NCBI GenBank assembly: GCA_017502125.1
Contig: JAFVVN010000034.1
Span: 16,288 to 80,287, forward strand
Direction of reading: 5' to 3'
DNA: 64,000 nt
From: Bacteroidales bacterium
GTDB taxonomy: Bacteria > Bacteroidota > Bacteroidia > Bacteroidales > UBA932
Under the pieces are notes generated by a model. The model did no database searches. It was not told where the DNA came from and saw nothing but the letters and a program-made list of their open reading frames with translations. The position numbers and the translations under genes are program-made. Positions 1 through 63,051 of this stretch are shown in pieces (positions within the stretch are counted from its first letter, which is position 1; every line of letters begins with the position of its first letter).

Positions 1-1645
1 CACTGGTAATATACTCTGAACTGTATGTAACAGCACCTTCGTTGTCACAGTTCTCAAGAGTAAATGACTTTGCAGCTCTAAGCCAACCAGCCACACCACC
101 GACACCGCAGACTTTTGATCCATAACTTGAACTTTCAACCACAGGTGCAAATGTTACTGCCTTCTTGTTGAGGCAGTCTTTGATAACGATATCCTGTCCT
201 GACGCATTAACCTGAGCGACGATACCCGCAACAGCAACATTCTTATCAGAAGTATTTATCAATTTTGCGGAAATTGTTCCGTCGTTAATACAATTCTCGA
301 TTGTACCTCCATTCATCATCTTTACGATACCAGCCACATAAGCATGATCCGCCTTTTCAAAAGTAACGGTCATCTTGTTTGTACATCCTGAGATTGTACC
401 GCCTGGGGCAAGTGTACTTACGAAAGGGGCATCTCCCTGAGAAGCAGTTGCCTCAAAGTTACCGGCTAGAGTAAGATTCTTAACCGTACCGCTTACGTTA
501 GAGAACAGCGCCTGTGTCGCGTTGCTGCGGGTGATTGTATGACCCGCACCGTCGAGAGTGTATTTGAACTCTGCGGTGATAGGAATAAGGTCCACTTCAC
601 TGTCATCGATATCAGCACCAAGCTTGATCGTATTCGAACCGTCGCCGATCCAACGATAGATCTCCCAATCCTTCTTCTCACCGGTATTATTTACAAATGC
701 AGCAAATTCATTCCAGTCAGCTGCAGAGTTAATCACGCCGTCTCCTGGCTTGAATGCAGGTTTGAATGGGATTATGACACCACCGTCTGAAGCGTGCTGA
801 GTCTTGTCAGCATTTACCTTGAATGATGCAAACTTTCCGTTCACATCCTTGATTGTGAAAATCAAACCACCTTCGTAATTATGTGCAGGAAGACCTACAA
901 TCATGGTAGTTCCCTGTGCAACACCTTCTGCACCACAATCATAACCAATAAAGGCAGTAAGGTTCTTTGGTTCAAGTAGAGCGGAACCATTATCAAACTT
1001 GACCGTCCACTGACCAGCAATATTTCCTCCATCGGCCTGACGTACATAGATATTCTTGATATTATCCTTTACTGTACTGTTTTCAGTATCGATTGTGATA
1101 GCATAGAATGTACTCATATGCTTAAACTGGAAGCTTTCTGTCTCACTATATGCAGCAAGGATATCTGAGCTTGAGTGGAATGACACATACTCACCGCCAG
1201 CCACTGTACGGAACTTCTGCATTGCACCTGTTCCTGATACCTGAATAGTATATACACCATCACTGAATTCCTTGCAATGTGTGCCAGTCACAGCATAGTA
1301 AGGAGGGGTTACACCTTCTACATCAAATGTGATGCTATGCTGATCCTTGCTTACAGAAACTCCTTCCTTACGTTCGTATTCTTCTGTCTCATCGTTGAAG
1401 ATATCCGCCATAGATTTCACACCATTGACAGCGATCACATCACTACTTGTGAAAAGTGTAGGAAACTCTGCTTCATTTTCTTTGTAGTGGATAGCAGTCT
1501 TTGTCTCTGCGCTGTTCACACTACCGGTGAAAGTTACCATCTCTCCCTTCGGAGCGAAGTCGTTCTGGTTTGCCTCTTCTTTCTGGCAGGCAACAATCGA
1601 TGTAGCAGCAAGCGCTACAAGCATAAAATATTTAATAGTGTTCAT
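1..1645 (-). CDS. Fimbrillin/GLUG-type surface lipoprotein (3' end outside window)
   Basis: Reads from ATG at 1645 and is still open at base 1, so about 548 residues are visible. The N-terminus is a lipoprotein signal with lipobox SIVAC and Cys at about residue 20. Next comes a fimbrillin-like beta domain (an ETKTAIHY stretch, then SSDVIAVNG). From about residue 290 there are right-handed repeat units with GLUG-like glycine motifs (VAGIVKMM, VAVAGIVAQV, VGGVAGWL). Such proteins are normally outer-membrane-anchored and exposed or periplasmic; the ligand is unknown. It starts 7 nt after small ORF P1, so it is probably co-translated with it. It resembles the GLUG lipoprotein at 5125-7122 in plan. 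No catalytic motif is visible. An adhesin or binding role is inference. Confidence 0.8.
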   Translation of the reverse strand, partial: MNTIKYFMLVALAATSIVACQKEEANQNDFAPKGEMVTFTGSVNSAETKTAIHYKENEAEFPTLFTSSDVIAVNGVKSMADIFNDETEEYERKEGVSVSKDQHSITFDVEGVTPPYYAVTGTHCKEFSDGVYTIQVSGTGAMQKFRTVAGGEYVSFHSSSDILAAYSETESFQFKHMSTFYAITIDTENSTVKDNIKNIYVRQADGGNIAGQWTVKFDNGSALLEPKNLTAFIGYDCGAEGVAQGTTMIVGLPAHNYEGGLIFTIKDVNGKFASFKVNADKTQHASDGGVIIPFKPAFKPGDGVINSAADWNEFAAFVNNTGEKKDWEIYRWIGDGSNTIKLGADIDDSEVDLIPITAEFKYTLDGAGHTITRSNATQALFSNVSGTVKNLTLAGNFEATASQGDAPFVSTLAPGGTISGCTNKMTVTFEKADHAYVAGIVKMMNGGTIENCINDGTISAKLINTSDKNVAVAGIVAQVNASGQDIVIKDCLNKKAVTFAPVVESSSYGSKVCGVGGVAGWLRAAKSFTLENCDNEGAVTYSSEYITS

Positions 1646-1652
1646 AGCTGTA

Positions 1653-1820
1653 TTAGAATATTTGGTTAAAATCACCCGAACCAATCGGATCTCCTTTAGA
1701 AACATTATCTACTTTTGAACTAGAGCAGAGGATGCCTTCTGCCTTGATCTCAAGTGTTTCGCATGCCGGGGGACAATACGAACATACACTCAAGATGACT
1801 GAGTTATTAGTTGTATTCAT
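1653..1820 (-). CDS. Short Cys-containing peptide P1 (55 aa), LEIKAEGILC family
   Basis: An ATG-to-TAA frame of 55 codons, found by reading the gap between larger genes. The product has no signal peptide. Its core is CPPACETLEIKAEGILCSS and its tail ends DFNQIF. The core LEIKAEGILC is identical in P2 (1864-2028), while the flanks differ, which suggests coding selection. It lies 43 nt downstream of P2 and 7 nt upstream of the lipoprotein at 1-1645. Four cysteines (residues 13, 16, 20, 32) could bind metal or form disulfides. Function unknown. Short proteins with a P-x-x-E-x-x-E-I-x-x-E-G core are, from memory, recurrent unannotated ORFs in Bacteroidales. Confidence 0.65.
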   Translation of the reverse strand: MNTTNNSVILSVCSYCPPACETLEIKAEGILCSSSKVDNVSKGDPIGSGDFNQIF

Positions 1821-1863
1821 ATAATTGATTATTTAATAATTGTTTGTCATATAGCTCAAACCG

Positions 1864-2028
1864 TTAGAATATTTGCTGATAGTCTTCATCAAAATCCATC
1901 GGTTCTCTTTGTGTAATAAGGTCTGCACTATGGCAGAGGATGCCTTCTGCCTTGATTTCAAGTATTTCACATGAAGGTGAACAATACTCTCTTATACACA
2001 AGGCGACTGAGTAATTTGATTTATTCAT
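1864..2028 (-). CDS. Short Cys-containing peptide P2 (54 aa), paralogue of P1
   Basis: A 54-residue frame whose ATG overlaps the last 8 nt of the phosphatase gene, a layout expected for translational coupling. The core CSPSCEILEIKAEGILCHS aligns without gaps to P1, including two cysteines before the LEIKAEGILC block and one inside it. The tail ends DEDYQQIF. No signal peptide or membrane segment is visible, so export would need a non-classical route, or the peptide is cytoplasmic. P2 and P1 are tandem duplicates that have diverged outside the core. Function unknown. Confidence 0.65.
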   Translation of the reverse strand: MNKSNYSVALCIREYCSPSCEILEIKAEGILCHSADLITQREPMDFDEDYQQIF

Positions 2029-3334
2029 ATAATTGGTTATTTAATAGTTTATTATCTTGTTTGACACTTTCAAGTTTTTCTATCATTTCCCTGACATCTT
2101 CCCACCGATAAAAAAGTCCATTAACAGGTGTCAGGTCATTCAGGGCTGTTTCTTTTTCATTTACATAGACTTTGACAATCACATCGTCCTTCTTCTTGTA
2201 AAATACCATCTGAAGGTTAGCACACATTGGTACGGCATCCGACACGTTCCAACTTCCATATGCCTCTTCTATCGAGCAGATCGGATAGCCAGGGATTCCG
2301 AGCAATGTACACAATGGAAGGAAAGCCGAATCATGAGCAAATCTCAGATCAGCTGCAATCTTCGAGTCCTGTCGAAGAGCATCATCTGCTTTTGCTGCAA
2401 AGTCCTTTAAAAGAGTGACCCCCTTGACACGAGTATATTTACCGAACTCCTCAGACACGGCAACCTTTGCATATTTGGCAGCATTGTCTATTGCGCTACA
2501 TTTTGCAAGTTCCTCAAGAGGGATTAAAGGCATCATGTCAATTCCCAGAAAATCCAGATCAAAGCAAATTGCCCAGAAATTAAAAATTCCCATTTCGACT
2601 TCAAATGGATCATTCATAGACCCGATGACATCTGCATCTGTGAAATATAGAGAGAGAAGAGACTTGGGATCCAGATCGGCGCGCATTAAAGAATCAACGA
2701 TCCTCTCAGCATCATCACTAAAATCGTATTCAAACGGGGAATTCAGGTATTCGTTATTGTATTTCTTACCAGCCAGATATGAGACCTCGAGATCGGGTTC
2801 AAGGCTTGAGAGTTCTTCCGTGAAGTTAGCCATGCTCATCAGACAACGGGAATACACCGAGCTTACGCAGCGCACCTGATTTCTCTTCTTCGACTTGAAT
2901 ACCGGCTTTTCCCTCTCGAACATTCTTTGTGCAATCTCCCTATGCTCAACAGCACCAAGAGGCGCCAGTTCGCCATACATTCCGTCATGAGCTTCATAGA
3001 CCGCCTTCATGGCAGAGTACAACGTTTTTCCATCTGCAGTAAGTTTTCCTTCAGCATATGCAGCCGCAAAGCTATCTATAGCCAGCTGCCATGCTTCAGG
3101 ACGCGAAAAATATCGGGAACCGTGTCTGCCGAAATGAGAGATATAGAACGGCTTATATCCATCCTCAGGCTGCGAGATTTCATAAGCCGCATCATAAGAA
3201 TACGGACGATATATGCCGGCACCAGCACTCGGATTCTTCTCCATCCTCTGCATCTGGGTCTGAGCGGGAAGAACAGCAGAGGACAGCAGACTAAGAATCA
3301 GGACAAAAATATGCTTATTAAATTTTGTGGTCAT
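2021..3334 (-). CDS. Secreted histidine acid phosphatase, MINPP (multiple inositol polyphosphate phosphatase) type
   Basis: 437 aa. A type I signal peptide (hydrophobic to about residue 22, cleavage near LPAQ) with no lipobox predicts a periplasmic or secreted enzyme. The clade-2 histidine phosphatase signature is visible: the RHGSR nucleophile loop at about residue 70 and a distal HDSAFLPL (His-Asp) motif at about 334. MINPP-type enzymes of gut Bacteroides remove phosphates from phytate and other inositol phosphates; substrate here is inference. It lies between an EEP-type lipoprotein and two small peptides. A TAAATTTG sequence (3339-3346) sits only 4 nt before the ATG, so any transcript from it would be nearly leaderless. 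More probably it is read from upstream. Confidence 0.85.
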   Translation of the reverse strand: MTTKFNKHIFVLILSLLSSAVLPAQTQMQRMEKNPSAGAGIYRPYSYDAAYEISQPEDGYKPFYISHFGRHGSRYFSRPEAWQLAIDSFAAAYAEGKLTADGKTLYSAMKAVYEAHDGMYGELAPLGAVEHREIAQRMFEREKPVFKSKKRNQVRCVSSVYSRCLMSMANFTEELSSLEPDLEVSYLAGKKYNNEYLNSPFEYDFSDDAERIVDSLMRADLDPKSLLSLYFTDADVIGSMNDPFEVEMGIFNFWAICFDLDFLGIDMMPLIPLEELAKCSAIDNAAKYAKVAVSEEFGKYTRVKGVTLLKDFAAKADDALRQDSKIAADLRFAHDSAFLPLCTLLGIPGYPICSIEEAYGSWNVSDAVPMCANLQMVFYKKKDDVIVKVYVNEKETALNDLTPVNGLFYRWEDVREMIEKLESVKQDNKLLNNQLYE

Positions 3335-3420
3335 AACGCAAATTTACCTTATTGAAATGTCGGATATTTTAGATTATCGGTAAATCAACAGGCGTGATTT
3401 ATAAAATCCAATACGGATCT

Positions 3421-5109
3421 TTAAAATTCCTCTTCATAGATCGACGCATCCGGAATACGGTCTAAACCACCCTGAACCCTATCTTTGAGCTCCTCTACGG
3501 GATACTTTTTCTTGAACGTCATGTCAGTATAGACCGGATAATGGTCTGAGATCATTGATACATCTACTCCAGGACAAGAACTAATGACTTCCGACTTATT
3601 TACAGTGTATTCAATCTGATCGTTCTTCCAAAGGAAGATATAGTCTATACAAGTACTGTTATTAGGATAAGTCACCACATAATTTGGTTTGGTACCAGTT
3701 ACAGATATGGTGTGCCAATACACTCCAATTCCTTCAAATTCTGTCGAGGTACCATTAATTTCCGGCGATCCTGGGGTTGCATTCATATCACCGACCAATA
3801 TGATCGGCTTATCAGAGTTTCCATGATTAGCCTTTATCCAATCATTGATCCGGACAATCTGATGTGCACGATTTTCTCGGTTATGGTGATCCAGATGAGT
3901 CACACAAAACAGAAAGTCATCATACTCTATCACTCCCAGTGAACGTGTCTCATAGCCCTCTGTCAGACATGGCAAATCTATTCTGGCACTACTTATCGCC
4001 TTAAGTTCAGGAGATGCCACAACTGCATTACCATATTCCTCATCTTTTGCAGGAAGAAAATGATAGTTCCAGCCATTCCCGATTTCTGAAGCTAATTGCT
4101 TGGGCTGATTATTCAAGTCGATTGAAAGGATTTTTGTCGACTCAATCTCATTCAAACCCACAATATCAGCCTCGTAATATTTAATTATAGAAGCCGCTTC
4201 CGAATACGAATAATGTCCCAACTGGTCCTTATATTTCTTAAACTTTCCGACATTATAGGTCATAAAAGTAAAGTTTCTGTATTCCACCACCGGCTTCCAA
4301 CCCTTTGAGTTCAGCTTGATGACATTCCTCTTTCCAGGCATTATGCTCACTTTTCCTGGTACTATATCCTTACAATATGTACCCCTATCGGTCTCCACTG
4401 TAACCCTAAGAGTCGTGCCGGACTCAATAAGAGCCTCTTGCATTGATGTCATCAGATACGCTTTTACAGTCTTATCGACACCGACAACACCGTTTACGAT
4501 ATCCATCACGAGACCAGATGCCTTAGGGCTTGATTCCAAGTTCGTAGCACAAAAGACAGAAGAAGATGCCTCGATCATAACCCGTGTAACCTTGGATGCA
4601 TTTACGGGAAGCTGAAAATATAAAAGAAGGGCACCGCTCTGAAGCAAGTCTCCGCCATGCTCTGCCGCCCATTCCTGAGTGAACTTGACATCTGCATATG
4701 TATTTACTCCCTTCAGGCATGCATCATATTCCAGATGTTCTGTTGCATGTACTCCAGTCTGGCTCTGCGAAAGGTATGACCTCTTTTCATAATCCTCGCT
4801 GCCAGCAAGAATGACATCAAACACATTACCTTTTACCACTTTACCGGTAAACGTTGCTTTTTTACCCTCAATAGCAGTCAAAGTGTAAGTTTCAACCGAT
4901 TCTCCAACAACGACAAGTTTATCTGACTGCTTCCAAGAAAGAGACAGCCCCGTATCATCGCCTTTTTCTGTCAAAGAAACTTTTGATTCCAAAGCATCGG
5001 GAAAAGTAGCATGAATAGTCATATTCACACTTTCCGTCATCTCATCTTGCGAACATGACACTGCTGTCATCAAGCAGATCAATAAGAATATATTATATAG
5101 TCTTTCCAT
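3421..5109 (-). CDS. Lipoprotein with fimbrillin-like N-domain and endonuclease/exonuclease/phosphatase (EEP) domain
   Basis: 562 aa. Lipobox AVSC with Cys19. Residues about 28-270 form a beta-rich module clearly homologous to the same region of the neighbour at 5125-7122 (shared AYLMTSMQEA / AYIMTSMQEA, EHGG and NVIKLNS/NIIKLNS blocks). Residues about 277-535 are an EEP fold with all usual catalytic motifs: TYNVG, GLNE (metal-binding Glu), THLDHH, GDMNA, IDYIF and ISDHYPV. EEP enzymes cleave phosphodiesters or phosphomonoesters (DNA, inositol phosphates, sphingomyelin); the substrate cannot be told from sequence. The extreme C-terminus, IYEEEF, matches the tails of the locus's small peptides. 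It ends 86 nt before the phosphatase gene starts. Confidence 0.85.
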   Translation of the reverse strand: MERLYNIFLLICLMTAVSCSQDEMTESVNMTIHATFPDALESKVSLTEKGDDTGLSLSWKQSDKLVVVGESVETYTLTAIEGKKATFTGKVVKGNVFDVILAGSEDYEKRSYLSQSQTGVHATEHLEYDACLKGVNTYADVKFTQEWAAEHGGDLLQSGALLLYFQLPVNASKVTRVMIEASSSVFCATNLESSPKASGLVMDIVNGVVGVDKTVKAYLMTSMQEALIESGTTLRVTVETDRGTYCKDIVPGKVSIMPGKRNVIKLNSKGWKPVVEYRNFTFMTYNVGKFKKYKDQLGHYSYSEAASIIKYYEADIVGLNEIESTKILSIDLNNQPKQLASEIGNGWNYHFLPAKDEEYGNAVVASPELKAISSARIDLPCLTEGYETRSLGVIEYDDFLFCVTHLDHHNRENRAHQIVRINDWIKANHGNSDKPIILVGDMNATPGSPEINGTSTEFEGIGVYWHTISVTGTKPNYVVTYPNNSTCIDYIFLWKNDQIEYTVNKSEVISSCPGVDVSMISDHYPVYTDMTFKKKYPVEELKDRVQGGLDRIPDASIYEEEF

Positions 5110-5124
5110 ATTATCTGATTGAAA

Positions 5125-7122
5125 TTATCTTATTAGTTTTGGTAATGCACTGGAAAGGTCCCATATTGTTTCATCCCACTTGAGCGATCTCGCCACTGAT
5201 GATAATGTAACTCCGGCCATTGCTGTCTTTCCATGGTAAGGATACCAATTGGAACATTCGTTTTCCTTGTAAATTGACCCTTCCTCACCATAGGTACCGA
5301 CGATCAACTTATTGTTTGAATCTGCATTATCCTGATCACACACATACGCCTCAACTCCTTCTATATCCTGAAATATACAACTGAAATTAATATCGGGTAT
5401 TCTATAGCAATCCTTTAAAGTGTGAAACACATAAGTTCTGGCAACAACAGCTCCGGAACTATATTGATTGTGATTTGTACCTGTGGCCTTAATCATTTCA
5501 TTCCATGCAATACATTTCATGACAGATGTCGGTTCCTTGCTTCCGGCATATCCGACAATTCCACCAACCACACGCATTCCTTCGACAGAGGCTGTCGAAT
5601 AGCAATTCTGGATAGTGAGCGGATTCGTGTTTTCATATGATGAGTTTCCAAACACTTCTCCAATGATTCCGCCGGTCTTCTGCATACCACCCTTAATAAT
5701 ACCCGCTGTCCAACAGTCTGATATTTCGCACACATTAGTTGTGCTTCCATCATTGTAATAACCGACAAGTCCACCAGTGCGATATCCAGAGGTGGTGTTG
5801 TCCTTATTGTTGTACACTTCTACATCCGCAGAACATCTCTGAATCGTACCGCTACCAAGAATTCCCACAAGACCTCCTACACCATTGGCCTTTCCATTGA
5901 CAACGCCTTCTACATGTACATTTTCTATCTCTCCGAAATTCTGGGCATTTGAACGTCCTAAATATCCACATAGGATTCCACAAGCCTTACCCTCTGCTCC
6001 CGTAATTTTAGCATCGATGATTGAAAGATTTGCAATTCTTCCGTTCAAGATAGCGACAAATCCTGCATATTCATTGCTGAAAGTCGCAGGGCTGAAATTA
6101 GAAATCGTTCTATTATTACCGTTGAAGTCCAAAGATTTGTTGTAGCTTATGCTTGGCCAAGTGGATATTGCTGACGCATCAATATCATTTACCATAGCCA
6201 CATACTTCTTTTCTGATCCAAGTTTGGATGCCATCAATCTAAGATCCTCAGCAGTTCTCAAGATGTAAGGATCCGATTCTGTACCAACACCTGCAGGAAC
6301 AGTCCAGTTCCGCGAATTAAGCTTGATAATATTTTTCTTTCCGGCCTCAAGCTTAGATTCCCCGGGAATGAACTTTTTGGACCATGTGCCAAGGTTTGAA
6401 ACTACTGTAAGGGTAAGTTCGGTCTCAGCCGGGATATTTGCTTCCTGCATTGAAGTCATAATATATGCCTTGATGACATTATCATCCTGCATATCAGCAT
6501 TATTCATAATAATGGACAACTCATTCGTCCTCTCACCATCAGCGGAATTGGTAGCATAGAAAATCTCATCCTCTGCACTTAAAGTGACAGTCTTGATATG
6601 ACCTGCATCTTCAGGCATCTGGAAATGCAACAGAAGACAGCCATTTTGAATGAGCACTCCACCATGTTCCTCGGCCCAAGCAGAAGTAAACCTTATATCA
6701 TTGTAATCCGACACTCCTTTTAATACAGCATCGTACTTCAGATGATCTACTGACGCTACAGTTGACTGAGTCTGTCCGTGATAAGACCTGTGCAGATACT
6801 CATCACCGGAATATGACAAAATGATATCATAGGAGTCACCATGAACCGACTTTCCTGCAAAGGTTGCCACGTTGCCTTCGTATGAAACGATTTCATACTT
6901 TTCACTAACCTTACCACTTACTACGGTAATATAATCATCTTCATCCCAAACAAGATCAAGAGCGTCGCCAACATCCGAAAAGGTGACCTTCGTCATCTCG
7001 GGAAAAGAAGCTGTAATGTAGACTTTGTCATCCGATGACGGAAGTGGATCAAACTCCTGCTTGACACTACACGCCACGGACATACTCATCAGGCCAGCTA
7101 AAATCATTATTTTCTTATCCAT
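5125..7122 (-). CDS. Lipoprotein with fimbrillin-like N-domain and GLUG repeats
   Basis: 665 aa from the ATG at 7122. An in-frame upstream extension to 7173 was rejected because it overlaps P3 and would bury the lipoprotein signal. Lipobox SVAC, Cys at about 18. Residues about 28-280 are homologous to the N-terminal module of the EEP lipoprotein. From about 290 there is a right-handed repeat region with four clear GLUG motifs (GVGGLVGIL, RTGGLVGYY, KTGGIIGEV, VVGGIVGYA) separated by about 30-50 residues. This plan is typical of surface beta-solenoid proteins, including adhesins. No enzyme motif seen. It follows P3 after 10 nt and precedes the EEP gene by 15 nt, so the three are probably one transcript. 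Confidence 0.85.
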   Translation of the reverse strand: MDKKIMILAGLMSMSVACSVKQEFDPLPSSDDKVYITASFPEMTKVTFSDVGDALDLVWDEDDYITVVSGKVSEKYEIVSYEGNVATFAGKSVHGDSYDIILSYSGDEYLHRSYHGQTQSTVASVDHLKYDAVLKGVSDYNDIRFTSAWAEEHGGVLIQNGCLLLHFQMPEDAGHIKTVTLSAEDEIFYATNSADGERTNELSIIMNNADMQDDNVIKAYIMTSMQEANIPAETELTLTVVSNLGTWSKKFIPGESKLEAGKKNIIKLNSRNWTVPAGVGTESDPYILRTAEDLRLMASKLGSEKKYVAMVNDIDASAISTWPSISYNKSLDFNGNNRTISNFSPATFSNEYAGFVAILNGRIANLSIIDAKITGAEGKACGILCGYLGRSNAQNFGEIENVHVEGVVNGKANGVGGLVGILGSGTIQRCSADVEVYNNKDNTTSGYRTGGLVGYYNDGSTTNVCEISDCWTAGIIKGGMQKTGGIIGEVFGNSSYENTNPLTIQNCYSTASVEGMRVVGGIVGYAGSKEPTSVMKCIAWNEMIKATGTNHNQYSSGAVVARTYVFHTLKDCYRIPDINFSCIFQDIEGVEAYVCDQDNADSNNKLIVGTYGEEGSIYKENECSNWYPYHGKTAMAGVTLSSVARSLKWDETIWDLSSALPKLIR

Positions 7123-7132
7123 AGCACTCTTA

Positions 7133-7264
7133 CTAAAATTCTTCACTATAAACGGGGTTGTCATCCATATCATTCAAAGAACCACTCATAACAAGAATCT
7201 GGTTTTCCAATTCCAATGAAATCTCACAACATTCGGGAGTTGTATAACTGACAATCTCAAGCAT
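7133..7264 (-). CDS. Short peptide P3 (43 aa), distant relative of P1/P2
   Basis: From the ATG at 7264 the product is 43 aa. A longer in-frame start at 7321 gives 62 aa but lies upstream of the best -7 promoter match. The segment SYTTPECCEISLELENQILV aligns with P1 SYCPPACETLEIKAEGIL (pattern P-x-C-E, then an acidic/hydrophobic block), and the tail ends VYSEEF. It is the first gene of the lipoprotein locus and stops 10 nt before the GLUG lipoprotein. Similarity to P1/P2 is modest, so the family link is inference supported by position, size, core pattern and C-terminus. Confidence 0.5.
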   Translation of the reverse strand: MLEIVSYTTPECCEISLELENQILVMSGSLNDMDDNPVYSEEF

Positions 7265-7286
7265 ATAACTATAAAATAAAACATCG

Positions 7287-7294
7287 TAAAGATA
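7287..7294 (-). promoter_or_regulatory. Possible -7 element (TATCTTTA) before P3
   Basis: On the minus strand TATCTTTA differs from the Bacteroidota TAnnTTTG element by one base and lies about 22 nt before the P3 ATG at 7264. No clear -33 TTTG is present. It sits just after the terminator of the preceding transporter gene, which is where the locus promoter is expected. Confidence 0.35.
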
Positions 7295-7367
7295 TGGGAT
7301 TACACAACATAGGGTTTTCACTTTTCCGTAAATCGTGTCAAGAAATCATTTAAAGTGATATGGGTAC

Positions 7368-7410
7368 AAAAAAAACAAGTGAGCTGCCCGTTTGTAGACA
7401 ACTCACTTGT
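7368..7410 (-). terminator. Rho-independent terminator of the DASS transporter gene
   Basis: On the minus strand an ACAAGTGAG/CTCACTTGT stem (7376-7410, 9 bp) is followed by a run of eight T residues. It lies 20 nt after the transporter stop codon and separates that gene from the lipoprotein locus. Confidence 0.8.
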
Positions 7411-7430
7411 GCATAATATTGAGGTTAGAA

Positions 7431-8933
7431 TTAAATCAGTCCTGTTGATCCAAGAACGATCAGCATACCATATCCGAGTACCAGACCGAGAACTCCCATG
7501 ATGAGGCCTGTCTTGATCATATCCTTCTGCTCGATCATGCCGGTAGCGGCTGCGATCGCATTAGGTGGAGTCGAAATAGGAAGCACCATACCAAGGGATG
7601 AACCGATAGCCACACCGATGAGGAGGGTTGAAACGCCACCGAGAGGTGCGAGGTTAGCAGATACAGCCGCACTTGCTCCCACTGCTGCAAGGATTGGAAC
7701 AAGGAGAGAGGCTGTAGCTGTATGTGAAATGAAGTTCGCCATTGCGTAGCAGATCAGACCTGAACCTACGACCATAACCACTGCTGGCCATGAACCGAAT
7801 GGGATAGCGTTGATGAGTGTCTGTGCAAGACCTGTCTCCTGAAGACCTACGCCGAGGGCGAAACCTCCGGCTACCATCCAGAGCACTGACCAGCTGATTT
7901 CCTCAAGGTCACGCTTTGTGAGTACTCCGATGATTGCACATACACCCACAGGGAGCATAGCCACAACGTTTGCATTGACACCTGTCTTCTTGTCAAGAAC
8001 CCAAAGGAGCACTGTGCAGGCGAAAGTGACATAGACTACAATCGATCTCCAGTCCTTCTTGAGTTCGCCCTCAATGTTGAGTTCGATGGACTTTGCCTTG
8101 AATGGGAACAATCTGAGGAGCATCACCCATGCCAGAAGAAGGAGCACGAGAGTAAGCGGAACCATGAAAGCCATCCACTGTCCGAATCCGATCTCGATGC
8201 CGATTTCTGACATATACTTGAGGGCGATTGCATTAGGAGGTGTTCCGATAGGAGTACCCATACCGCCGACATTGGCTGCAATAGGAATTGCAAGAGCAAG
8301 AGCTGTCTTTCCTTTACCGTCAGCAGGGAGAGCCTTGAGGACAGGACCGAGGAAAGTGAGCATCATCGCAGCTGTTGCAGTGTTACTCAGAAACATTGAG
8401 AAGACTCCTGTCACCATGAGGAAGCCCAGAAGGACAAACTTCGGATTCTTGCCGAAAGGCTTGAGCATCACTCGTGCAAGGAAGAGATCGAGTCCTGTCT
8501 TCGAAGCAGCGATTGCGAGAACGAAACCTCCGATAAAGAGCATGATGATAGGGTCTGCAAAGCAATGGAGCAACGACTTATAGCTTGTCTGAACTCCAAG
8601 TACAGCCGGATCAGCATTTTCAAAGAATACAAGGCTGCTGTTCGAAGTGGTAAAAAGAAGGAGAACAACGACCATTACGGAAGTAGTCCATGCTGGAACT
8701 GCCTCAAAGAGCCACATGAGGATGGCAAAGAGGAAGATTGCCAGAGTTCTCTTCTGAATGATGGTCATGCCTGTAATCCAATCCTCTACAGGAAGGCACC
8801 AAACTACCAGAGCCGCTACGATGGCAATGATCAGGCGAATTGCTCTTGAAACTGTCTTGTTATCTCTCTTGGTGGCCTTTTTCCAGTTATGGTAGGACTC
8901 AACAAGCTGATAACCAGGGAAAATCTTAAACAT
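7431..8933 (-). CDS. DASS/SLC13-family sodium:anion (dicarboxylate) symporter
   Basis: 500 aa, highly hydrophobic with about a dozen membrane segments. It has the inverted-repeat hallmarks of the divalent anion:sodium symporter family: SNTATA and GTPPNAIALK in the first half, SHTATA and STPPNAIAAA in the second. Family members import succinate, malate, fumarate, citrate or sulfate with Na+. A dicarboxylate substrate is plausible next to the 2-oxoglutarate enzymes but is inference. The N-terminal ~35 residues are a charged cytoplasmic extension. It has its own strong promoter (8983-9012) and terminator, so it is a single-gene unit. Confidence 0.85.
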   Translation of the reverse strand: MFKIFPGYQLVESYHNWKKATKRDNKTVSRAIRLIIAIVAALVVWCLPVEDWITGMTIIQKRTLAIFLFAILMWLFEAVPAWTTSVMVVVLLLFTTSNSSLVFFENADPAVLGVQTSYKSLLHCFADPIIMLFIGGFVLAIAASKTGLDLFLARVMLKPFGKNPKFVLLGFLMVTGVFSMFLSNTATAAMMLTFLGPVLKALPADGKGKTALALAIPIAANVGGMGTPIGTPPNAIALKYMSEIGIEIGFGQWMAFMVPLTLVLLLLAWVMLLRLFPFKAKSIELNIEGELKKDWRSIVVYVTFACTVLLWVLDKKTGVNANVVAMLPVGVCAIIGVLTKRDLEEISWSVLWMVAGGFALGVGLQETGLAQTLINAIPFGSWPAVVMVVGSGLICYAMANFISHTATASLLVPILAAVGASAAVSANLAPLGGVSTLLIGVAIGSSLGMVLPISTPPNAIAAATGMIEQKDMIKTGLIMGVLGLVLGYGMLIVLGSTGLI

Positions 8934-61710: not shown

Positions 61711-63051
61711 ATGCAGAAACCGACAGGAACATACTCATACAGGAATATATGGAGAGTTGCATACCCCATCCTGATCAGTCTGGTGATGGAACAGATGATC
61801 GGTCTGACTGACACAGCCTTTCTTGGAAGGGTCGGTGAGATAGAACTGGGAGCCTCTGCCATAGCCATCGTATATTATATGGTCCTGTTCATGATCGGCT
61901 TCGGTTTCAGTCTCGGTGCACAGATAATCATCGGCAGGAGAAACGGAGAAGGAAGATTCTCCGAAACCGGAAAAGTGTTCTGGAACGGTATATATTTCCT
62001 GTTAGGCCTCTCCGTGGTGATCATTGCCGGTTCGGAACTGCTTTCGCCTTGGCTGATGAAGCTCATGGTTTCATCCGAAGACATATATACTGCTGCCCTA
62101 AGTTATGTACGCTGGCGCCTGCCGGGAATGGTCTTCGCTTTCATGACTGCAATGTACCGTGCCTTCTATGTGGGCACGACCCAAACCAAGACCCTGACTC
62201 TCAACTCAGTAGTCATGGTCCTCTCCAACATTGTGTTCAACTGGATACTGATATTCGGAAAGTTCGGCCTTCCGGCTTTGGGAATCACAGGAGCCGCGAT
62301 AGGATCCAGTCTTGCCGAACTCGTTTCCCTCATATTTTTCGTCGCATATACAAGGCTGAGGTGCGACCGTAGGAAGTACGGACTTGAAAAGGCTGCCGGA
62401 TTTGATGCAGGCGAGCTTAAGAACATGATGCCCGTGTGTTCATGGACCATGATCCAGAACACCATATCCGTATGCACCTGGTTCATATTCTTCCTGTTCA
62501 TAGAGCATCTGGGAGAACGTGCCCTTGCCGTCTCCAACATCACACGTGGAGTTTCAGGCCTGCTATGGGTGGTGCTTCAGGCATTTGCAGCAACATGCAG
62601 CACACTGGTCAGCAACATGATAGGAGAAGGGCACCAGGACAAGGTCATGTCTCTGGTCAAGAGAATCCTGAAACTTTCATATGGGATAGTCAGCGTCATG
62701 ATAATACTCTTCTGCATGTTTCCTCAGGCGCTGGCACGCATATACACAGACATTCCTGACCTTGTAACCGCCTCTGTCCCGGCCATGGTGGTCATGTGCA
62801 CCTCATATTTCATCAACGTGGGAGGACAGGTATTCTTTCTTGCTGTTTCGGGAACGGGAAGCACAAAGACAGCCTTCCGTCTGGAACTTATAGCTCTATT
62901 CGTATATATGGTATACTGCTATGTGATCATCAGTGTTCAGAAGGCAGATGTCGCCATATGCTGGACCGCCGAGCATGTATATGCGGGAGTGCTGCTGATC
63001 TGCAGCTGGTGGTATATGAGAAGCGGACGCTGGAAGAACAGAAGGATATGA
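61711..63051 (+). CDS. MATE-family multidrug/cation exporter
   Basis: 446 aa from ATG 61711; an in-frame TTG at 61657 lies inside repeat copy B and was rejected. Twelve membrane segments in two six-helix halves. Start YSYRNIWRVAYPILISLVMEQMIGLTDTAFLGRVG is the family pattern (given in part: MEQMIGLTDTAFLGRVG). NorM/DinF-type proteins expel drugs or metabolites using Na+ or H+; substrate unknown. It converges on the metallopeptidase gene with 5 nt between stops. Confidence 0.9.
   Translation: MQKPTGTYSYRNIWRVAYPILISLVMEQMIGLTDTAFLGRVGEIELGASAIAIVYYMVLFMIGFGFSLGAQIIIGRRNGEGRFSETGKVFWNGIYFLLGLSVVIIAGSELLSPWLMKLMVSSEDIYTAALSYVRWRLPGMVFAFMTAMYRAFYVGTTQTKTLTLNSVVMVLSNIVFNWILIFGKFGLPALGITGAAIGSSLAELVSLIFFVAYTRLRCDRRKYGLEKAAGFDAGELKNMMPVCSWTMIQNTISVCTWFIFFLFIEHLGERALAVSNITRGVSGLLWVVLQAFAATCSTLVSNMIGEGHQDKVMSLVKRILKLSYGIVSVMIILFCMFPQALARIYTDIPDLVTASVPAMVVMCTSYFINVGGQVFFLAVSGTGSTKTAFRLELIALFVYMVYCYVIISVQKADVAICWTAEHVYAGVLLICSWWYMRSGRWKNRRI

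Follow-up and report, generated by a model that had tools for sequence, protein, structure and literature searches.

What do the three small open reading frames P1, P2 and P3 encode, which stand between surface lipoprotein and phosphohydrolase genes in the window (the whole 64,000-nt stretch of DNA analysed here)? The first-pass annotation offered cofactors, chaperones, signals and ribosomally made peptide precursors; of these, the precursors are favored by a leader motif and by association with an enzyme set, and the others are less supported. In our reading, P1 and P2, and less surely P3, are probably ribosomally made precursors of a RiPP-like, lasso-related system that lacks the usual lasso peptidase.

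Table 1. Small frames and neighboring genes in the window; leader/tail boundaries in P1 and P2 are placed by lasso numbering
Feature	Coordinates	Strand	Description
P1	1653..1820	-	55-aa small protein; BLASTP with P2 and leave-out profile
P1 leader part	~1728-1820		Residues 1-31
P1 predicted tail	~1653-1727		From Cys32
P2	1864..2028	-	54-aa small protein; BLASTP with P1 and leave-out profile
P2 leader part	~1936-2028		
P2 predicted tail	~1864-1935		
P3	7133..7264	-	43-aa small protein; looser family member
Fimbrillin-like lipoprotein, downstream of P1	1..1645	-	831 aa in full contig; truncated by window start
Histidine phosphatase, His_Phos_2	2021..3334	-	Pfam match
Lipoprotein	3421..5109	-	Fimbrillin-like N-terminal domain and Exo_endo_phos domain
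Lipoprotein	5125..7122	-	Related N-terminal domain and GLUG match; immediately after P3

All three frames noticed at first pass are present, on the minus strand (Table 1); the start of P3 was taken as its ATG, whereas the ORF listing begins it at a GTG further upstream. Their placement at lipoprotein starts or at the phosphatase stop is borne out by the measured spacings: the stop codons of P1 and P3 precede a lipoprotein ATG by 7 and 10 nt, respectively, and P2 has an 8-nt overlap with the end of the phosphatase gene. P2 is followed in tandem by P1, with 43 nt from the stop of the former to the ATG of the latter. The Exo_endo_phos lipoprotein starts 15 nt past the stop of the GLUG lipoprotein and lacks its own peptide. 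The histidine phosphatase is presumably phytase/MINPP-like, and no Pfam match reached the cut-off for the lipoprotein behind P1.

BLASTP aligns P1 with P2 over their full length (50% identity, E = 6e-18), with a score reached by none of 2000 shuffles. P3, which carries one extra residue ahead of the ILVMS region, gave no BLASTP alignment with P2; its score against P2 was matched by 134 of 2000 shuffles and that against P1 by none. A leave-out profile built from 155 relatives, P1-P3 excluded, and run on 1368 window segments scored P2 at 8.5e-13, P1 at 3.6e-11 and P3 at 0.0013. A second leave-out profile of narrower scope, made from 54 rows selected by pattern, recovered P1 and P2, and scored P3 at only E = 1.6, below an unrelated 30-residue segment (E = 0.0022; E = 0.021 in the 155-relative profile) that lacks YxxP and is taken for a chance match. 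Because of this score, the membership of P3 is partly positional. Judged by sequence, family membership is secure for P1 and P2 and weaker for P3, in line with the earlier description of P3 as a looser version; nothing else in the window was convincing as a member. The cysteines that had been seen as paired are not a general family trait: among 158 profile-collected members, 121 have Cys and 24 have Ala at position +1, the first residue of the predicted tail.

The peptide family, which has no name in Pfam or NCBIfam, is matched in 50 of 61 sampled genomes of the genus (among the matches listed), with at least 19 matches in the source genome GCA_017502125.1, and homologues also occur in other Bacteroidales families; one isolate with the peptide unit is Phocaeicola barnesiae DSM 18169 (L220). 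Of the 154 testable members (4 of 158 had too little downstream DNA), 136 end between -25 and +40 nt from the start of a lipoprotein gene, as called by our own lipobox rule, vs 25 of 1308 control ORFs judged at the same limit after exclusion of motif-bearing ORFs. In wider Bacteroidales rows, chosen by a DNA pattern, 61 of 63 passed this lipoprotein test (7 of 70 were left out for lack of room), and 2 of 10 rows titled as non-Bacteroidales groups passed; of these two, L224 is nearly identical to Bacteroidales copies and the pass of L219 is due to chance. Fourteen of the 154 members fail the lipobox rule within -60..300. Among these failures, L163 has a lipobox-like start missed by the rule, L111, L170 and L068 are followed by products that look exported without a lipobox, and the next gene is membrane permease-like for L024 and peptidase-like for L102. 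Because family members precede lipoproteins at many loci, a phosphohydrolase-specific role was rejected, and the earlier tie of the peptides to a single surface locus or to phosphohydrolases does not hold.

The lipoproteins encoded behind the peptides have an N-terminal domain in common (187-188 of 188 in a search of a small database whose entries have signal peptides in common), and 123 of 184 carry Lys two residues past the lipid Cys. In both features they resemble fimbrillin/Mfa_like_1 lipoproteins; at E<=0.01, two of the 34 N-domains match PF13149 (Mfa_like_1). Solved-structure searches gave no clear relative of the N-domains and nothing useful for the kinase-set proteins described below, and a small literature search found no paper on a peptide partner of fimbrillin/Mfa_like_1 lipoproteins.

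Members of the family share one architecture, a constant leader half followed by a variable tail. YxxP is present in 158 of 158 profile-collected members, Ser(+3) in 146 and Ile/Val(-2) in 114; once pattern-selected members are added, Ser(+3) is found in 204 of 216, much of which the pattern itself imposes. General features of RiPP precursors are combined here: (i) a short gene, (ii) a conserved leader, (iii) a variable core, and (iv) an RRE in the genome. Across 65 cassette pairs, pN/pS is 0.45 for the leader and 0.40 for the tail, but in the proposed dN/dS check the P1/P2 pair itself, with dN 0.317 and dS 0.36, has a ratio near 1 (0.114/0.228 in the 16-codon core, 0.424/0.43 in the flanks).

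Near-identical blocks of ~100-140 bp, with unrelated DNA on both sides, are shared by some cassettes, and one block pair is inverted relative to each other on contig JAFVHZ010000102.1. Such blocks could mean that the conserved 5' half is a DNA recombination site shuffling promoters and lipoprotein cassettes, with the peptide as a by-product. However, the motif codons vary nearly as freely as those of the lipoprotein genes and leader pS is 0.585 (65 pairs), so conservation acts at the protein level and this explanation is very improbable; exchange between like leaders may occur as a side effect. Codon use at the motif is near background (176 of 216 ORFs; ~58 pattern-selected ORFs are forced to TCN at Ser in this count), with a slight preference for C-ending codons, e.g. 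GGC at 0.51 vs 0.36. An RNA element was rejected as well, given the varying motif codons and no Rfam match in 1-7500. Anti-phage defence was dismissed, the sole match being that of P2 to a helicase model (12.9 bits), and a plasmid search with one relative as query gave no match.

The spacing from peptide stop to lipoprotein start is tight (median 14 nt; 136 of 140 within -25 to +40) and shows no preference of reading frame (45/54/41), which disposes of a frame-shift fusion to the lipoprotein. The same two features speak for a cis-acting upstream ORF: its translation, or stalling on it, would be coupled to that of the lipoprotein or control it, and its product would have no role in trans. We regard this explanation as unlikely, since the tails are under purifying selection inside cassette lineages, P2 and P1 stand in tandem, some members have no lipoprotein behind them (L322 and L336 precede an HprK-like gene; also L084), and the association with kinase and PqqD genes would be unexplained. 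Translational coupling could exist in addition to a precursor role.

The type of lipoprotein is tracked by the tail and hardly by the leader: correlating peptide similarity with that of the mature lipoproteins gives a Spearman coefficient of 0.11 for tails (reached by 0 of 200 permutations) and 0.04 for leaders (20 of 200). This pattern would arise if the peptides were dedicated chaperones or targeting factors in the cytoplasm, docking on a shared partner by the constant half and recognizing the cognate lipoprotein by the tail. Yet physical linkage alone can yield the correlation, the tail resembles its cognate lipoprotein no more than it does the rest (a tail mimicking the lipoprotein was likewise discarded), and a chaperone would not account for the co-occurrence with an exporter and a kinase; we consider a chaperone quite unlikely.

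The precursor reading draws on that co-occurrence. The source genome encodes an ABC protein, an HprK-like kinase, an S24-like protein and NTP_transf_5 on contig C28, away from P1-P3, with PqqD alone on a separate contig, C27. The kinase has an SGTGKST motif invariant in 9 sequences; its name comes from weak matches (PF07475, E = 0.1; TIGR04352, 16.3 of 200 bits), and no HprK is among its PDB matches. We take TIGR04352 to denote the HPr-rel-A type of PqqD/kinase systems, which are similar in having PqqD near an HprK-related kinase but different in view of this score far under the cut-off. In the S24-like protein, G33, S35, M36, P38, H73, R74, G87, D88 and G89 are invariant (12 sequences), in agreement with the S24/S26 Ser peptidase pattern of a G-x-S-M-x-P motif, whose Ser is presumably catalytic, together with another conserved residue of presumed catalytic role. 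PF00717 (S24) is above the cut-off in L337 and below it in the source genome (18 of 23.3 bits), and L267 has no match.

Among the 61 genus genomes, PqqD occurs in 53, the source genome included, and the HprK-like kinase in 54; peptides were found in all 33 genomes where the kinase match is strong, in 15 of the 21 where it is weaker, and in 2 of the 7 that have none. The exceptions are G032 (30 peptide matches among the matches listed and PqqD, no kinase match), G018 (one peptide, neither enzyme found), G070 and G098 (peptides and kinase, no PqqD match), and G013, G063, G069, G072, G092 and G097 (enzymes, no peptide at E<=0.1 among the matches listed). In a set of 247 genomes from the order, the kinase is present in 15 of the 16 that have a peptide match and in 19 of the 231 that do not (p = 7e-14, Fisher test with genomes treated as independent), several of the 16 peptide matches being weak (E 1e-4 to 7e-3). 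The G298 match falls in a 370-aa frame, and L068 is another G298 peptide. The association holds within Mfa_like_1-positive genomes (9/1/3/21, p = 4e-5, same test and assumption), with 6/0/16/191 in the remaining ones. Restricting the kinase to matches at E<=1e-50 leaves 15 genomes, 12 of them with a peptide; conversely, a kinase match of this strength is found in 12 of the 16 peptide genomes. In G230 a peptide but no kinase was matched, 19 of 34 kinase-positive genomes have no peptide match, and in G155, G242 and G244 the kinase match is strong and the peptide was not detected. No precursor-like small ORF at 15 kinase-set loci passed our uncalibrated filter.

In three other Bacteroidales genomes, the peptide is clustered with the full set: peptide-HprK-S24-PqqD-NTP5-ABC (L336), peptide-lipoprotein-HprK-S24-PqqD-NTP5-ABC (L337), and PqqD-NTP5-HprK, then peptide and lipoprotein after a gap of two genes, then S24-ABC with a single gene intervening (L338). 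Clusters that combine peptide, lipoprotein and the set are thus known from two other families. A further cluster, L339, has peptide, lipoprotein, ABC and kinase only. A peptide lies <=5 kb from the kinase, a distance picked post hoc, in 4 of 15 genomes vs 0.24 expected. Leader type also differs with the exporter: for five genomes with exporter B, G[FIM]AxS occurs in every one of the 14 peptides read out of 24 listed, and it occurs in none of those from the source genome, which has exporter A, among the matches listed. Leaders of an intermediate kind are seen in two genomes with exporter A, G306 (GFMAAS) and G322 (AFLANA).

The closest comparison is with lasso peptides. In the BsfA study (PMC10368454), BsfA-type precursors have Y-17, P-14 and I/V-2, and with an I(-2)A variant Ser3 was identified as the site that the kinase BsfK phosphorylates. 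Phosphorylation still took place when Y-17, P-14 and L-12 were replaced one by one or jointly, and cleavage was reduced only by the triple change. Precursors of this kind, as in the bsf cluster (PMC10368454), come with a PqqD-type protein (B1), a kinase (K), a nucleotidyltransferase (N) and an ABC exporter (D). The YxxP(-17/-14), Ile/Val(-2) and Ser(+3) of our family have the offsets of such a lasso precursor, and the family's genomes likewise have PqqD, HprK-like, nucleotidyltransferase and ABC genes. The YxxPxL leader is matched in YxxP and loosely in Leu, position -12 being mostly V/T/C/I (Leu in 5% of 216 members); Asp/Glu at core 7-9, the lasso ring position, is found in 105 of 216, within an acidic tail. 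In contrast to lasso systems, an S24-like protein is present instead of the lasso peptidase PF13471, and the precursors are dispersed ahead of lipoprotein genes. PF13471 exceeds its cut-off in only 1 of 61 genus genomes (G013) and reaches E<=0.001 in 5 of 61, none being the source genome; a standard lasso system was therefore rejected.

For P1 and P2 as precursors, the following pathway may be proposed: (i) PqqD would bind the YxxP leader, (ii) the HprK-like kinase would phosphorylate Ser(+3), onto which NTP_transf_5 may add a further group, (iii) the S24-like protein would cut just ahead of CxS, at about Leu31/Cys32 in both peptides, and (iv) the ABC protein would export the tail. The exported tail might then, as a guess, serve as a ligand, cap or ornament for its own surface lipoprotein. 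It is a tentative and rather doubtful extension that each surface lipoprotein has one peptide, a shared RRE, kinase, S24-like peptidase and exporter maturing many peptides that, phosphorylated or decorated at Ser(+3), leave the cell and are attached to, or displayed by, the adjoining fimbrillin-like lipoprotein.

The precursor reading would predict both a modified residue and a cleavage site, give abundant unnamed small genes of gut Bacteroidales a testable function, and supply candidate substrates for PqqD and HprK-like genes without a recognized adjoining precursor. It would connect a lasso-like maturation set, lacking the usual peptidase, to adhesin-type surface lipoproteins. If each lipoprotein indeed has its own peptide, the surface repertoire would be open to reassortment.

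All three small frames proposed in the first-pass annotation are present, and P1 and P2 are clear paralogues. The kinship of P3 is less uniform: a 155-member profile made without P1-P3 recovers it (E=0.0013) and its location ahead of a lipoprotein start gives extra support, but under a narrower profile it reaches only E=1.6 and an unrelated segment ranks above it. No Pfam or NCBIfam model matches P1-P3 at E<=1, and the same models give only stray matches, each in one member, among 57 family members. A 30-residue stop-to-stop segment containing EGCLCAS matches two family profiles (E=0.0022 and 0.021); it lacks YxxP and is probably a chance match.

Features of the peptide locus, in order of transcription, and the EGCLCAS segment
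Feature	Coordinates	Strand
P3	7133-7264	minus
GLUG lipoprotein	5125-7122	minus
Exo_endo_phos lipoprotein	3421-5109	minus
Histidine phosphatase	2021-3334	minus
P2	1864-2028	minus
P1	1653-1820	minus
Fimbrillin-like lipoprotein		minus
EGCLCAS segment	~62803-62895	minus

Relatives of the peptides occur in 50 of the 61 sampled genomes of the genus (31-member profile, E<=0.1), with 19 matches in the window's own genome, and in 16 of 247 genomes of the order set (related profile, E<=0.01). Placement was assessed for 158 distinct members from 175 loci, 154 of them with sufficient downstream DNA. A lipoprotein start lies within -60 to 300 nt downstream of 140 of the 154 (median gap 14 nt) and within -25 to 40 nt of 136, versus 25 of 1308 other 35-70 aa ORFs of the same loci at the latter limit. 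Scanning named genomes with a DNA pattern yielded 80 matches across 79 stretches, mainly from Bacteroidales MAGs, many of ruminant origin, and also from Phocaeicola barnesiae, one Phocaeicola MAG and Candidatus Limimorpha equi; 61 of the 63 Bacteroidales matches with enough room showed the same placement. The downstream lipoproteins have a common N-terminal domain of up to ~250 aa (187-188 of 188) and diverge beyond it. The adjacent GLUG and Exo_endo_phos lipoproteins likewise have a common N-terminal domain (41% identity) and different C-terminal domains. The histidine phosphatase has family matches in 128 of 151 genus genomes, at most 10 per genome; in G032 (58% identity) and G073 (36%), the two genomes inspected for this, one such phosphatase directly precedes a peptide and lipoprotein, as in the window.

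Selection acts at the protein level, and the peptide consists of two modules, a constant leader with YxxP and a variable tail. The P1-P2 pair, for which a dN/dS comparison had been proposed, is by itself near neutral outside the core, but across 65 of the 94 family pairs whose lipoproteins are related, the leader half has a pN/pS of 0.45 and the tail one of 0.40, compared with 0.38 for the lipoprotein. Codon use at the conserved motif, compared in 176 of 216 ORFs, is close to the lipoprotein-gene background apart from some shifts. Among 134 members, similarity between tails tracks that between lipoproteins (0.11; 0 of 200 permutations) and similarity between leaders barely does (0.04; 20 of 200); no link is seen between leader and tail (-0.025; 162 of 200). 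The peptide could instead have a cis-regulatory role as an upstream ORF, or have one in addition to a role as precursor. Some cassettes carry a near-identical leader block of ~100-140 bp flanked on either side by unrelated DNA (loci L198 and L235 on contig JAFVHZ010000102.1, and L109, L063, L120 and L139; one pair oppositely oriented), possibly through cassette exchange or inversion.

One of 57 members matched the paeninodin lasso model (E=0.098), which taken alone is noise; it prompted a test for lasso-type processing genes. The lasso leader peptidase PF13471 exceeds the cut-off in one of the 61 genus genomes (G013, where it lies ~6 kb from PqqD in a lasso-like locus, L283), and PqqD/RRE PF05402 is found in 53. 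In several of 20 PqqD neighbourhoods, PqqD is accompanied by an HprK-like kinase, an ABC exporter, and an S24-like protein or NTP_transf_5. PqqD stands without these neighbours in G032 and in the window's own genome, where it is on contig C27 and the other four genes are together on C28. Both the kinase and the peptidase are named from motifs and from matches of modest strength. Of the 55 genus genomes with PqqD or kinase, 49 have peptides, compared with 1 of the 6 that lack both (p=4e-4); by strength of the kinase match, peptides are present in 33/33, 15/21 and 2/7 genomes with a strong, a weaker and no match, respectively.

Across the 247 order genomes, the kinase is present in 15 of 16 peptide-positive versus 19 of 231 peptide-negative genomes, an association not explained by Mfa_like_1 content. 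The peptide lies within 5 kb of the kinase, a distance picked post hoc, in 4 of 15 genomes (0.24 expected, p=3.7e-5). In L336 (G054) it is 38 nt ahead of the kinase of a full set, with no intervening lipoprotein; L337 (G286) has peptide, lipoprotein and all five genes in a row; L338 (G306) holds them inside ~12 kb with other genes interspersed; and in L339 (G187) the genes seen together are limited to those for peptide, lipoprotein, exporter and kinase. The PqqD/NTP_transf_5/HprK-like genes of L338 adjoin genes that by eye resemble capsule-export genes. The exporters fall into two separate types, and the leader type goes along: in five exporter-B genomes, including G105 of the window's own genus, G[FIM]AxS is found in 14 of 14 peptides read, of 24 listed; among genus members with exporter A the usual form is EG[VI][IL]CxS; G306 and G322 (exporter A) have intermediate forms.

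No literature linking fimbrillin-type genes to RiPPs or small upstream proteins was found by title or abstract start, with subscription papers and preprints mostly outside the scope; this silence is weak evidence of absence. The available part of a Bacteroidales RiPP survey has PqqD once only, in the reference list, and lacks fimbrillin (PMC10352776). A rumen survey describes lasso clusters with kinase, PqqD and nucleotidyltransferase genes (PMC7533575). In the bsf lasso system, the cluster encodes a PqqD-type B1 protein, a kinase and a nucleotidyltransferase, the precursor carries Y(-17), P(-14) and Ile(-2), and the residue modified by the kinase was identified, in a variant, as Ser3 (PMC10368454). 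When the present family is numbered in this way from its invariant Tyr, all 158 members have Pro(-14), 146 have Ser(+3), 121 have Cys(+1) and 114 have Ile/Val(-2). Mutants from the bsf work count against the processing proposed below: phosphorylation there does not strictly need the YxxPxL residues (PMC10368454). By analogy, we infer that in the P1-P3 family the RRE (PqqD) would bind the leader, Ser(+3) would be phosphorylated, the S24-like protein would cut before CxS, and the tail, roughly 20-25 residues, would be exported.
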